Origin: Phycisphaerae bacterium
GTDB lineage: Bacteria; Planctomycetota; Phycisphaerae; Sedimentisphaerales; Anaerohalosphaeraceae
Assembly (NCBI GenBank): GCA_021736615.1
Contig: JAIPFN010000069.1
Location: 1-5,828, forward strand
Length of the DNA: 5,828 bases
Reading direction: 5' to 3'
Made by a program: the position numbers and the translations under genes. Below the pieces are notes generated by a model. It did no database searches, was not told where the DNA came from, and saw only the letters and a program-made list of their open reading frames with translations. Positions 1 to 5,828 of this stretch are shown piece by piece (within the stretch, counting starts at the first letter, position 1; every line of letters starts with the position of its first letter).

Positions 1-1467
1 GTCCATGAACTGTTCGTATGATGTGAACTGACGGGCATCGCCGGTCTTTGGTCCGATCTGCAAACCTGTAGTGGGGTCAGTGCCATTGTTGCAGGCAAGC
101 TCGAACACTTTGGCCCAGTTATAGTAACCCGTCAGGATGCAGCTTTCCTTGCCGAATGCGCTGATCGTAACGCAGCCGCTTGGCCCCCCTGCCCTGGCGT
201 CGACCATGTTTTTGTCGTTATACAGCATTTCCTTGATAATTACGTCGGTATTGAAAAGCGACGGCTGACCGAAACCGGCACGGACGACTTCGCAGGCTCG
301 CTTGAGAAAACTGTCGGGGTTCTTTGCGCTTAGCTGGATGCACGCACTCGGCTGGATGAGCCGCATTTCTTCGACGACATCGAGGATGAGGTATGATAAT
401 TCGTTGACGGCGTCTGCGCCCGTATCCGGGTGTACGCCGCCTACGTTTATCAAGGCGAAATCTGTATAGGTTCCGCTGGCCTCTTCGGTAATGCCCACCT
501 TCGGCGGTGCGGGGTGGTTATGGAACTTGACCCAGAAGCACTGTAGAAGTTCTCTTGCCTGTTCTTTTGTCAACTCGCCGGCGTCGATCTGCTTTTTATA
601 GAATGGGTAAAGGTTGTAATCCAAACGGCCGGGATTGAAAGAGTCCCAGGTATTGAGTTCTGAAATTACGCCGAGGTGGATAAACCAGTATGTCTGGAGG
701 GCCTCCTGGAAGGTTCTCGGCGCGTTTGCGGGAACGTGTTTACAAACCTCTGCGATATTGAGCAGTTCGGTTTTGCGGGTTTCATCGGATTCAACTTTTG
801 CAAGTTCCCTGACTTTATCTTCGCAGCGGCGGGCAAATGTCATGATCGCGTCACAGGCAATGTCCATGGCCTCAAGCTGCTGGCCCTTGTCATATGCGTC
901 GTGGTCGTTAAGGAAATCGAGTTTCTCGCGAGTCTCTGCAATCCTTTCCTTAAATCGGATCATTCCGTATTTATAAATTTTATCGTCCATGATAGCATGG
1001 CCGGGTGAACGCTGCTCCATAAACTCAGTAAAAACACCTGCATCGTAGGCCTGCTGCCATGGCTTTGTCATGCACTTAAACAATTTTTCCCGCATGGTCT
1101 TGCCGGACCAGAATGGGATAATCTTTTCCTCATAAACCTTACTAACGCTTTCGGGCACATCATAACGCGTTCTATCCCTCGTGCTCATAATACGGAAGTC
1201 TTCGAGGTCGTGGCAGCATAGTTCCGGGTAGGTCGGTGTTGCCTTTGGTGCAGGTCCCCTTTCGCCGACGATCAACTCGCCTTCGTTAATACAGATGGAC
1301 TTGTTTTCCATGATATACTTAAAAGACAACGCCCTGCAAACGGGGGTCGAGACCTGCATGGGAACGTCTGACTGGTAAAAATCCGTAATCAGTTCTGCCC
1401 GCTCCGACGAGATATACGGCAAGATTTCCAATGACTGCTGACGAAGCTTACTTACTCTTTCATTCAT
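1..1467 (-). CDS. Glycyl radical enzyme, HypD-like, N-terminal 489 residues (C-terminus beyond left edge)
   Basis: This is an anaerobic radical enzyme of the pyruvate formate-lyase superfamily: a glycine in the C-terminal loop carries the radical and passes it to an active-site cysteine. The reading frame is open from ATG at 1467 to the left edge. The start overlaps the activase stop by 8 bases, and translation is probably coupled. Visible landmarks are GELIVGE (63-69), FMEQRSPGH (149-157), ELNTWDSFNPG (270-280), APPKVGIT (320-327), TYTDF (333-337) and GGPSGCVTISAFGKE (427-441), with the presumed thiyl cysteine at C432. Compared from memory, it tracks Clostridioides difficile trans-4-hydroxy-L-proline dehydratase (HypD, about 790 aa) throughout. 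F149, H157, D275, S331, D336, F337 and Y448 match HypD pocket residues F152, H160, D278, S334, D339, F340 and Y450. The oddity is T434, where dehydratases and other eliminases have Glu (C-X-E). The family call is firm; the substrate is unknown. The glycyl loop and about 300 residues are missing. Confidence 0.93.
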   Translation of the reverse strand, partial: MNERVSKLRQQSLEILPYISSERAELITDFYQSDVPMQVSTPVCRALSFKYIMENKSICINEGELIVGERGPAPKATPTYPELCCHDLEDFRIMSTRDRTRYDVPESVSKVYEEKIIPFWSGKTMREKLFKCMTKPWQQAYDAGVFTEFMEQRSPGHAIMDDKIYKYGMIRFKERIAETREKLDFLNDHDAYDKGQQLEAMDIACDAIMTFARRCEDKVRELAKVESDETRKTELLNIAEVCKHVPANAPRTFQEALQTYWFIHLGVISELNTWDSFNPGRLDYNLYPFYKKQIDAGELTKEQARELLQCFWVKFHNHPAPPKVGITEEASGTYTDFALINVGGVHPDTGADAVNELSYLILDVVEEMRLIQPSACIQLSAKNPDSFLKRACEVVRAGFGQPSLFNTDVIIKEMLYNDKNMVDARAGGPSGCVTISAFGKESCILTGYYNWAKVFELACNNGTDPTTGLQIGPKTGDARQFTSYEQFMD

Positions 1468-2771: not shown

Positions 2772-3938
2772 TCAGTACCAGCTGTTTTCGTATGCGCCTT
2801 CGAACAGGGCTACTACGTTTTCTGGCGGAACGCCGCCCTGGATATTGTGGATGTTATTGAATACATATCCGCCGCCGGGCTTGAAGATTCTCATGGCTTC
2901 GGCGGCTTCTGCTTTGACATCTTTCGGGCTTGCAAATGGCAAAGTGTGCTGGCTGTCGCATCCTGCGCCCCAGAATACCATTTTCTTGCCGAACTCGTCT
3001 TTCAATTCCTGTGGGTCCATTCCGTCTGCACTTGTCTGGACCGGGTTTAGAATGTCAACGCCATTGTCGGACAGTTCGTTGATCAGAGACCTGCAGTTTC
3101 CGCAGGTGTGGTACCATATCTTCGCGTCGGTCAGGCTTCTGATGTGCTGGGTGAGTTTCTTCTGCCTTGGTTTGACGATATTCTTGTAAAAGTCAGCGCG
3201 GAACAACGGACCGGACTGGCCTGCAAGATCATCGCCGATCATAATAACATCGACAATATCGCCGACCGCTTCCATAAAACCAGTACAGTAATCGATCCAG
3301 AACTCGGCTATTTTATCCAATACAGCCTCACAGAATTCCTGATTTAAAATCGTATCCATAAGCCACTGTTCCAACCCCCGCATATACCAGCAGGTTTCAT
3401 AGACAACACCGTGTATACCGGTGCAAAGTGCGTATGGGGTTTCCTCACGCATTTTAAGGGCCTCTTCACGAACGCCTGTAAACCTTGTCGGATCGTTACC
3501 CTTGGGGAACGGGTAGTTAGCAACATCCTCAATGGTAGCGTCGGCTAGCGGGTGATGCGAAATGTCCATATAAAGATTCTGATCATCCGGCATGGACCAT
3601 ATGACACCGAACTCATCCTTCAGGTCGTGCCAGAGCCTTCCGTTTCTTTCGTTCTTTTCGATGCCGCCCTTGAAACTATCCGGCCCGTGCGCACAGATGT
3701 ATCGGGTGTCAACGTGAAATCTTTTCAAAACTTCTTCGCTTGGTTTTGCCAATTGCTGGACGGGATCAAGAATAACGATTTCTTCTTTCAGGCCAAGGTA
3801 ATCAAGGAGGTCCTTGTAAGCGTTCTTATGAATACCGGTCTGAAATCCGCCGAGATCGATCGGCACGCGGTCGGCTTCCTGGTGATTTATCGCTTTTAGA
3901 ACTCTTTCTCTCGAAGTCATTGTTTCTTTTTTCGACAT
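2772..3938 (-). CDS. URO-D superfamily protein, MtaA/CmuA-like corrinoid methyltransferase type
   Basis: This is a 388-residue cytosolic TIM-barrel protein of the uroporphyrinogen decarboxylase superfamily. That superfamily includes true heme-pathway HemE and methyltransferases that move methyl groups between corrinoids and thiols or other acceptors (MtaA, MtbA, CmuA). The N-terminus TSRERVLKAINHQEADRVPIDLG is the usual opening of the methyltransferase-like branch. H277-X-C279 in WYHTCGNC and C327 in FWGAGCDSQ reproduce the His-X-Cys...Cys zinc-binding pattern of MtaA-type enzymes, and C282 is an additional nearby cysteine. DILNPVQ (295-301), GGGYVFNNIHNIQGGVPPENV (355-375) and the C-terminal tail are also family-like. 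The zinc triad argues against HemE. ATG at 3938 was preferred over Met7 because AAGGGA lies 8 bases upstream of it. The gene has its own promoter and terminator. Substrate and methyl acceptor cannot be read from the sequence, and no corrinoid protein gene is visible nearby. Confidence 0.88.
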   Translation of the reverse strand: MSKKETMTSRERVLKAINHQEADRVPIDLGGFQTGIHKNAYKDLLDYLGLKEEIVILDPVQQLAKPSEEVLKRFHVDTRYICAHGPDSFKGGIEKNERNGRLWHDLKDEFGVIWSMPDDQNLYMDISHHPLADATIEDVANYPFPKGNDPTRFTGVREEALKMREETPYALCTGIHGVVYETCWYMRGLEQWLMDTILNQEFCEAVLDKIAEFWIDYCTGFMEAVGDIVDVIMIGDDLAGQSGPLFRADFYKNIVKPRQKKLTQHIRSLTDAKIWYHTCGNCRSLINELSDNGVDILNPVQTSADGMDPQELKDEFGKKMVFWGAGCDSQHTLPFASPKDVKAEAAEAMRIFKPGGGYVFNNIHNIQGGVPPENVVALFEGAYENSWY

Positions 3939-4178: not shown

Positions 4179-4955
4179 ATGAAGTAAAAAGGGTTCACGC
4201 TTATCGAACTGCTCGTTGTAATCGCTATTATCGCCTTGCTGCTTGCTATTTTGATGCCGTCACTGAGGCGAGCCAAAGAAGCGGGCAAGCGAATCCAATG
4301 TATGAATAATACCAAGAGCCTGGCGGCCGGCATGATAATGTATACCAATGACAATGACAGCGAGTTCCCCAAGGCCTGGACACGACCGAAATCGGAAAGT
4401 GACGGATGGCTCCTAGAGGTTGAAGGCCATAAGCAAAACCCGGCGGACGCGTCTAAAGAATTGCAACAAGATGCCATAAGAGGCGGACTTTTATACCCTT
4501 ACGTTGAAAATACAGAAGTTTATTACTGCCCGGTTGCTAAAAGCAATGAATTTCGCACATATTCGATGACACAAGCTCTTAATGGCTTTTATGGTGCAGC
4601 CGGTGGGGAGATTCTGAAAAAGATTTCTCAAGTGAGGAATTCTTCCGGGCGGATCCTGTTTTTAGACGATTATGCTAAAGACTGGGACGCGTGCTGGATG
4701 ATCTATAACAACCAGACAAAGTGGTGGAATACAACGCCTATTCGGCATGGTTCCGGAGGCAATGTGTTCAGCTTTGTTGACGGGCATGCAGATTTTCATC
4801 TTTGGAGGGATGATAGAACAATCAAACTGGCGGAACGATGCTATGAAGAAAATACAGCCGGTGATCTAAGCGCCCCTGCCCAACCTGGAAATGAAGATAT
4901 ATTCTGGGCTCAGAGGGCCACGTGGGGAACTTTAGACTATACACCAACACCGTGA
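4179..4955 (+). CDS. Prepilin-type N-terminal domain protein with H-Xn-DG motif; in-frame TAA at codon 3
   Basis: This is a pseudopilin-like protein of the kind greatly expanded in Planctomycetota and Lentisphaerota. The N-terminal KGFTLIELLVVIAIIALL is a type IV prepilin signal: cleavage after the glycine, mature Phe1 and Glu5, then one hydrophobic helix. After the helix come a short Lys/Arg-rich stretch, MYTNDND, YYCPV, ILFLDDYAKDWD, and near the C-terminus RHGSGGNVFSFVDGHADF, the H-Xn-DG signature (here ten residues between H and DG; nine is usual). The expected start ATG-AAG at 4179, with GAAGGG about 10 bases upstream, is followed by TAA (4185-4187) and then AAA-GGG in the same frame. 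One substitution (AAA to TAA) explains this. The only conventional in-frame restart before the membrane helix ends is TTG at 4236, which would remove most of the signal. The rest is open to TGA at 4955 without frameshift. It may be a recent pseudogene, a sequencing error or an unusual start. The function of such proteins is largely unknown. Confidence 0.8.
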
Positions 4956-5170: not shown

Positions 5171-5828
5171 TCAATCTCCCTTTTGGCCGTTCTTGATGAA
5201 CTGTTCTGCAAAATATTTTGGGGTCAGATGCTCACCTGTCGAGCGAAGGATCATTTCGTTCCAGTCATTGACGGCACCGGGGCCGAAGACCTGGTCGCGG
5301 AAATACCGGCCTATTCGCTTGTCGCCTACATAACTTACACCCGCATCGCTTTTAAGCTTAAGAATATCTTTGACGATGTGGTTGTGCCACTGCGAGGCCA
5401 GCAGTTCGCCGAGCATGTAATTGTGATAGTAGCAACTTGCCACGGTGAAATGCAGTTTCGAGGCCCAGCCGGCGTCCGGCTTGCCCTCCGGTCTGTTGAC
5501 AAACTGATACTTCTCGACCATATCCCACCACAGGGTGTTCAAATCCTGATCTGGATCGGCATAGACGGCCCTTTCAAAGTTATACATCACCATCGCCCAT
5601 CGGGCAAAAAGTATCTGCTGGAACTGGAGGTACTGGAATGCAACCTCTTCCACTTCTTCTCGCCGGGCATCGCTCAGGCCGAGCATCTGCTGCATCGACG
5701 CGGCATTGCGTGACAAACGTCCGAAGAACATTGCGGCGGCTTCGGTGGTGAAAGTGTGGGCAGGCTCCCGGAGCAGCCAAGGCTCGGAGGGATCGTGATA
5801 CTTGAAATAGACCGCGTGTCCCAGTTCG
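5171..5828 (-). CDS. ACE-like zinc metallopeptidase (family M2), C-terminal 218 residues
   Basis: This is a gluzincin-type zinc peptidase resembling angiotensin-converting enzyme. The right edge cuts it inside the HELGH motif: the last base of the probable first His codon is at 5828, and the first complete codon, Glu, starts at 5827. Counting that Glu as 1, the second zinc His is H4 and the likely third ligand is E29 in FTTEAAAMFFG. Downstream, FARWAMVMYNFERAVY (74-89), DLNTLWWDMVEKYQ (95-108) and KLHFTVASCYY (124-134) match the ACE-type fold, with H126 at the position of ACE His513 and Y133 near Tyr520. The end, with WNEMILRSTGE and YFAEQF, also resembles ACE C-termini. An internal ATG at 5731 is not the start, because the frame stays open and conserved upstream of it. 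Family M3 oligopeptidases share this architecture and are the main alternative. The N-terminal half and any signal peptide lie outside the window. Confidence 0.82.
   Translation of the reverse strand, partial: ELGHAVYFKYHDPSEPWLLREPAHTFTTEAAAMFFGRLSRNAASMQQMLGLSDARREEVEEVAFQYLQFQQILFARWAMVMYNFERAVYADPDQDLNTLWWDMVEKYQFVNRPEGKPDAGWASKLHFTVASCYYHNYMLGELLASQWHNHIVKDILKLKSDAGVSYVGDKRIGRYFRDQVFGPGAVNDWNEMILRSTGEHLTPKYFAEQFIKNGQKGD

Follow-up and report, generated by a model that had tools for sequence, protein, structure and literature searches.

The window analysed here is a stretch of 5,828 nucleotides on contig JAIPFN010000069.1 of a Phycisphaerae bacterium. It carries, at one edge, the gene of a glycyl radical enzyme (GRE) of the HypD type whose active site reads Cys432-Val433-Thr434, as compared to Cys434-Val435-Glu436 in HypD of Clostridioides difficile (Table 1). 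The open reading frame is cut by the window edge after residue 489 of about 787, and the glycyl-radical loop lies beyond the window. The start of the GRE gene and the gene of the activating enzyme overlap by 8 bases. Residues are numbered according to the window GRE, and proteins with Thr or Glu at position 434 are referred to as T-type and E-type, respectively.

Table 1. Features of the window; residue numbers in brackets are those of C. difficile HypD
Feature	Position	Strand	Basis
HypD-type glycyl radical enzyme, residues 1-489	1..1467	-	open reading frame; 3' part beyond window edge
Cys loop GGPSGCVTISAFGKE, residues 427-441	145..189	-	sequence, alignment to 6vxc
Thr434, codon ACG (Glu436)	166..168	-	sequence, alignment to 6vxc
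Cys432, codon TGC, catalytic thiyl Cys (Cys434)	172..174	-	sequence, alignment to 6vxc
His157 (His160)	997..999	-	invariant, 389 rows
Asp275 (Asp278, the proposed acid/base; PMC7077986)	643..645	-	invariant, 389 rows
Ser331, Asp336, Phe337, substrate loop (Ser334, Asp339, Phe340)	457..477	-	invariant, 389 rows
Tyr448 (Tyr450)	124..126	-	Tyr in 388 of 389 rows, Cys in one
Glycyl-radical activating enzyme, radical SAM and ferredoxin-type 4Fe-4S dicluster segment	1460..2362	-	NCBIfam, Pfam
URO-D / MtaA-CmuA-like methyltransferase	2772..3938	-	PF01208
Type IV pilin-like / DUF1559-like gene, prepilin-like segment GFTLIELLVVIAIIALLLAIL	4179-4955	+	
M2 (ACE-like) peptidase, C-terminal part	5171..5827	-	PF01401, BLASTP

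The best match of the GRE in a PDB sequence search is 6vxc, the structure of C. difficile HypD, with Thr434 opposite the Glu of its CVE. The Cys-X-Glu (CXE) motif with Glu436 is a feature of HypD; the window GRE has Thr434 instead. A first-pass annotation, made from the sequence alone, had described this loss of Glu in a HypD-like GRE, and both the 6vxc alignment and the homologues confirm it. That annotation had placed the active-site stretch at 133..187; the motif was correctly recognized, while the coordinates were a few bases off. All seven pocket residues that it listed for HypD (F149, H157, D275, S331, D336, F337, Y448) are found here, in agreement with 6vxc. In the alignment the equivalents of Cys434, His160, Asp278, Ser334, Asp339, Phe340 and Tyr450 are retained. 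The same holds for Thr645, whose position falls beyond the window and was examined in relatives. P0001, the nearest full-length relative (95% identical; 787 residues), likewise has CVT, and its glycyl-radical loop is complete (RVAGYSDCF); absence of this loop had been named as a reason to doubt the enzyme. The equivalent of Gly765 is found in P0001 and in 381 of the 389 aligned rows; there are seven gaps and one Ile, the latter in the truncated P0021.

Position 434 is Thr in 304 and Glu in 85 of the 389 rows; no other residue occurs there, Ala, Ser, Gln and Asp included. The rows comprise 381 distinct sequences (299 T, 82 E), among which near-copies persist. Thr codons were read at 29 T loci: ACG at 15, ACA at nine, ACC at three and ACT at two. 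A sequencing or assembly artefact might be suspected in a gene cut by the window edge. The substitution is real, however, because it is seen in 299 distinct T sequences and every one of the four Thr codons occurs, each differing from a Glu codon by two bases; the probability of an artefact is negligible. Glu at 434 in close homologues had likewise been named as evidence against the substitution. It is found in some relatives, where it marks separate nested lineages and not the correction of an error.

T-types are widespread among the relatives. The best-scoring 120 homologues listed comprise 117 with GCVT and three with GCVE, and in a third protein search, around non-planctomycete sequences, the 120 further proteins listed are again 117 T and 3 E. 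From a scan of genome contigs the best 80 of 412 relatives were used, giving 31 T and 49 E loci (6 E inside the T-containing clade described below and 43 outside). The records of the T loci are labelled Phycisphaerae, Sedimentisphaerales, other Planctomycetota, Thorarchaeota (L032, L039), Latescibacteria (L034), Lentisphaeria (L028), Synergistetes (L018), WOR-3 (L079) and Pirellulales (L046). Among the literature matches listed, in which subscription journals are thinly covered, a Thr variant of HypD is not named in titles or opening abstracts.

Regarding family membership, comparison with NCBIfam models and with solved structures alike places the GRE fragment nearest to HypD. P0001 scores 1232.7 bits with the HypD equivalog NF043068, above its cut-off of 1100; the 489-residue fragment in the window scores 729.8, below it. 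Against solved sequences P0001 reaches 1012.4 bits with 6vxc. As nearest solved relative we rejected the N-methyl-4-hydroxyproline dehydratases (8id1, 462.4 bits; 8iof, 451.5 bits) as well as the hydroxyproline C-N lyase HplG (7vua, 411.3 bits). The model of P0001 is 54% identical to 6vxc over 777 residues in the structural alignment. Likeness to C. difficile HypD (6vxc/6vxe) further includes the thiyl Cys, the equivalents of His160, Asp278, Ser334, Asp339, Phe340, Tyr450, Thr645 and Gly765, and an adjoining activase gene. Unlike HypD, the window GRE has Thr for Glu436, and around it the clade-specific residues P429, S436, C443, A158, I159, E328 and Q330. The N-methyl-4-hydroxyproline dehydratases share the GRE fold and, going by the entry titles, a related substrate, but are 32-33% identical and not the nearest family, and 8id1 has CVE at the site. 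HplG, going by its entry title, is a GRE acting on hydroxyproline. Diol and glycerol dehydratases and CutC share the GRE eliminase fold, but are 31-36% identical and retain CXE (CVE in the PDB alignments), with Glu as the proposed base (PMC7077986). The earlier description as HypD-like is correct, as is that of an otherwise conserved pocket. We label the window protein HypD-like (T-type) since its full-length relative agrees with the HypD sequence model and yet lacks the CXE feature. It probably works like HypD, although it is not a proven hydroxyproline dehydratase.

Columns 426-446 were left out of the trees. All T rows fall inside one clade of Planctomycetota, Asgard archaea and others (SH-aLRT 100 in two trees), marked by Pro429, with Ala in the in-clade E rows P0124 and P0145, and by changes beside the active site. 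For the comparison of clade-marker columns (269 rows) these two rows were counted outside the clade. When the tree is rooted with the remaining E rows, T occupies the deepest branches of the clade. Glu appears in nine separate nested groups in the 389-row tree, three of which may have a common origin. At least eight changes at 434 are needed on the 98- and 269-row trees and nine on that of 389 rows. A clade made up of all T rows and nothing else was rejected on the 98-row tree, a quick tree with a simple model. To change between Thr and Glu, two bases must be replaced (GAR to ACN); Ala and Lys, the residues reached after the first of these steps, are both absent from the 389 rows. Transfer of a long stretch from E-types outside is unlikely, because in-clade E rows mostly keep the neighbouring residues of the clade (S436 and C443, each in 27 of 28). 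One of the changes within the clade is accompanied by merely 10 other fixed differences. Thr and Glu would probably be interchangeable solutions at 434 within the clade.

The CXE motif is described as conserved among GRE eliminases, in others of which its Glu is proposed as base, and this Glu is essential in the C. difficile HypD tested (PMC7077986). In that enzyme, Asp278 is proposed to deprotonate the amine and to protonate the leaving hydroxyl, and Glu436, which points at this hydroxyl, to position it together with His160 (PMC7077986). For the variants E436Q, H160Q, D278N and D339N no activity was detected (PMC7077986). T-types retain the counterparts of His160, Asp278 and Asp339 and, of the mutated set, lose Glu436 alone. 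The first-pass annotation took Glu to be the general base of HypD and hence the base to be lost. This premise is wrong as far as the published mechanism goes, and we rejected loss of the general base as the main consequence: Asp278 has the proposed acid-base role (PMC7077986) and is conserved here, so that the loss of Glu leaves the proposed acid-base group intact.

Judged from sequence, we consider it rather probable that T-type GREs of the HypD family dehydrate trans-4-hydroxy-L-proline or a very close analogue. The substrate would come from hydroxyproline-rich peptides and be converted to pyrroline carboxylate. The Cys432 thiyl radical would abstract a hydrogen from C5, and Asp275 would take the amine proton and then protonate the leaving hydroxyl. 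His157 and Thr434, probably via a bound water, would orient the leaving hydroxyl, replacing Glu.

That the T-types catalyse another kind of radical reaction on a hydroxyproline-like substrate, one that does not dehydrate it, appears very unlikely. Pyruvate formate-lyase and benzylsuccinate synthase have Ser, not Glu, near the site corresponding to 434. HplG, by the title of entry 7vua, shows that C-N cleavage in hydroxyproline by a GRE is possible. The T-types, however, keep the proposed acid/base Asp275 and the hydroxyproline pocket residues checked, and Thr and Glu changed repeatedly within the clade, once with the 10 fixed differences given above. The inactive E436Q variant (PMC7077986) would fit an inactive or regulatory GRE paralogue. 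Such a role we regard as highly improbable: the T rows preserve the catalytic Cys, the Gly loop and the pocket residues tested, the activase gene overlaps that of the GRE, and 30 of 32 T genomes have one HypD-type gene.

These genome counts were obtained as follows. Of 24 T-bearing genomes, 23 have a single HypD-type gene, weaker matches (at most 38% identity) being other GREs; in G008, two GRE pieces lie side by side and belong to a single gene. G017 carries in addition an N-terminal fragment of 151 residues (62% identical), which leads into undetermined bases and is untypable. Among genomes of the class, 25 of 198 matched (10 T, 14 E and, at 37% identity, a different GRE), and G144 carries two T copies; G144 and G017 are thus the two exceptions. 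The six in-clade E genomes have one copy apiece. A draw of 392 genomes from the phylum, for which the threshold was stricter and no more than two candidates were scored in each genome, gave 15 genomes with one match apiece; the seven newly met were one T and six E. T and E were found together in none of the 57 typed genomes (32 T, 25 E; overlaps removed), where partial second copies may be missed in drafts.

A peptide-utilisation gene neighbourhood is common to both types. Downstream genes were counted at loci with at least 1.5 kb downstream (25 T, 5 in-clade E and 33 other E). An M2 peptidase gene follows the GRE gene at 10 T, two in-clade E and two other E loci. A sodium:solute symporter is present at nine T and two in-clade E loci, and an Xaa-Pro aminopeptidase-like M24 peptidase at six T, two in-clade E and five other E loci (two of these matches being weak, 24-27% identity). 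Near the GRE of L023 lie a 4-hydroxyproline-epimerase-like gene (414.3 bits, cut-off 450) and a FAD amino-acid-oxidoreductase-like gene. These neighbours suggest that hydroxyproline-rich peptides would be the source for both types alike, with L079 (below) as the exception. In Phycisphaerae the order GRE, M2 peptidase, sodium symporter and Xaa-Pro-aminopeptidase-like gene recurs (L009 7037-12124 and similar loci). The M2 peptidase gene of L016 (5757-7554) is broken across two reading frames near an undetermined base. No M2 peptidase was seen within the fetched flanks of L001, which is the closest of the genome loci.

A changed substrate is possible. Thr may fit or select a related compound (another hydroxyproline stereoisomer, dihydroxyproline, or N-methyl-hydroxyproline from betaine breakdown) that would still undergo radical dehydration; we hold this specificity switch to be conceivable but unlikely. 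That 434 is only Thr or Glu is as expected of a two-state switch, and there are solved GRE structures for N-methyl-cis-4-hydroxy-L- and D-proline (8id1, 8iof; by entry titles), although these are merely 32-33% identical. In L079 (WOR-3), genes of an MttB-family methyltransferase, an MtgC-like corrinoid protein, a MetH activation-domain protein and a homocysteine methyltransferase lie divergently beside the T-type GRE (5268-9012), and an MtaA-like gene is found in the window and in L001. Against this, the residues reported to bind the amine and the carboxylate of hydroxyproline are unchanged, the peptidase context is the same for T and E, and the two types were not found together in the typed genomes. 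As far as the flanks reach, L079 is the only one of 31 T loci with MttB-type genes by the GRE. MttB is present in 15 of 24 T genomes and had no match in nine, these being drafts; on these counts the betaine route was set aside as weak. It seems doubtful that 434 is a natural two-state switch in which T-types use non-CXE hydroxyl-leaving chemistry on a substrate other than free trans-4-hydroxy-L-proline, the Thr/Glu flips tracking the available substrate. The undescribed activity put forward in the first-pass annotation is not well supported: T and E interleave on the tree, have neighbourhoods in common and were not found together in the 57 typed genomes.

Several observations weigh against dehydration of trans-4-hydroxy-L-proline by the T-types. 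The strongest is the inactivity of E436Q in C. difficile HypD (PMC7077986). Thr would be too short to take over the role of Glu directly, and the restriction to Thr or Glu in 389 rows suggests that Thr is selected for something specific. No M2 peptidase lies downstream in 15 of the 25 T loci with enough sequence. ProC (pyrroline-5-carboxylate reductase), which would convert the product into proline, scores above the cut-off in just 17 of 24 T genomes, and in five of six in-clade E genomes. It had no match in either of the Thorarchaeota genomes or in the WOR-3 and Latescibacteria genomes, which are drafts and for which other routes exist. The T-type genomes without ProC above the cut-off are G012, G015, G016, G018, G020, G021 and G024.

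A compensating column that, besides 434, fully separates T from in-clade E was not found in the 269-row set. Among 680 varying columns, the one that tracks 434 most closely is position 545, in planctomycete lineages, where T-types mostly have Pro and E-types Thr. In eight independent pairs it changes in the same direction in 6.2 on average and in the opposite direction in none (sign-test median p 0.03, uncorrected for the number of columns). As a general compensator 545 was rejected: the full-length relatives of the window GRE combine Thr434 and Thr545, Glu434 occurs together with Pro545 in the P0091 group, and 95 of the 120 proteins of the third search have Thr434 with Ser545. Structure prediction gave a GRE fold with a mean pLDDT of 85.1, the active-site stretches 324-333 and 643-646 being under 50; in the predicted structure 434 and 545 would each open a strand (434-437 and 545-551).

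Among the other genes of the window, the activase fits the T4HPD activase model NF043069 best, with 343.4 bits below the cut-off of 425, and exceeds the cut-off of TIGR02494. The MtaA/URO-D-like gene has a 90% identical counterpart in L001, there too upstream of the activase. The M2 peptidase is the same protein as the one that directly follows the GRE in L009 (71% identical, BLASTP). In the pilin-like gene, an in-frame TAA is the third codon counted from the likely ATG.

Irrespective of residue 434, T-types (e.g. P0018) are assigned to NF043068 and carry the public name 'trans-4-hydroxy-L-proline dehydratase'. Hydroxyproline dehydratase names in sediment Planctomycetota and Asgard archaea would therefore rest on the predicted function of a variant. 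The T-types form a large natural group of oxygen-sensitive radical enzymes that offers a test of what Glu436 does in HypD-like GREs. Within this broad natural clade without the CXE Glu, Thr and Glu have been exchanged repeatedly on an otherwise constant pocket, and the clade thereby provides a ready test set for the role of Glu.
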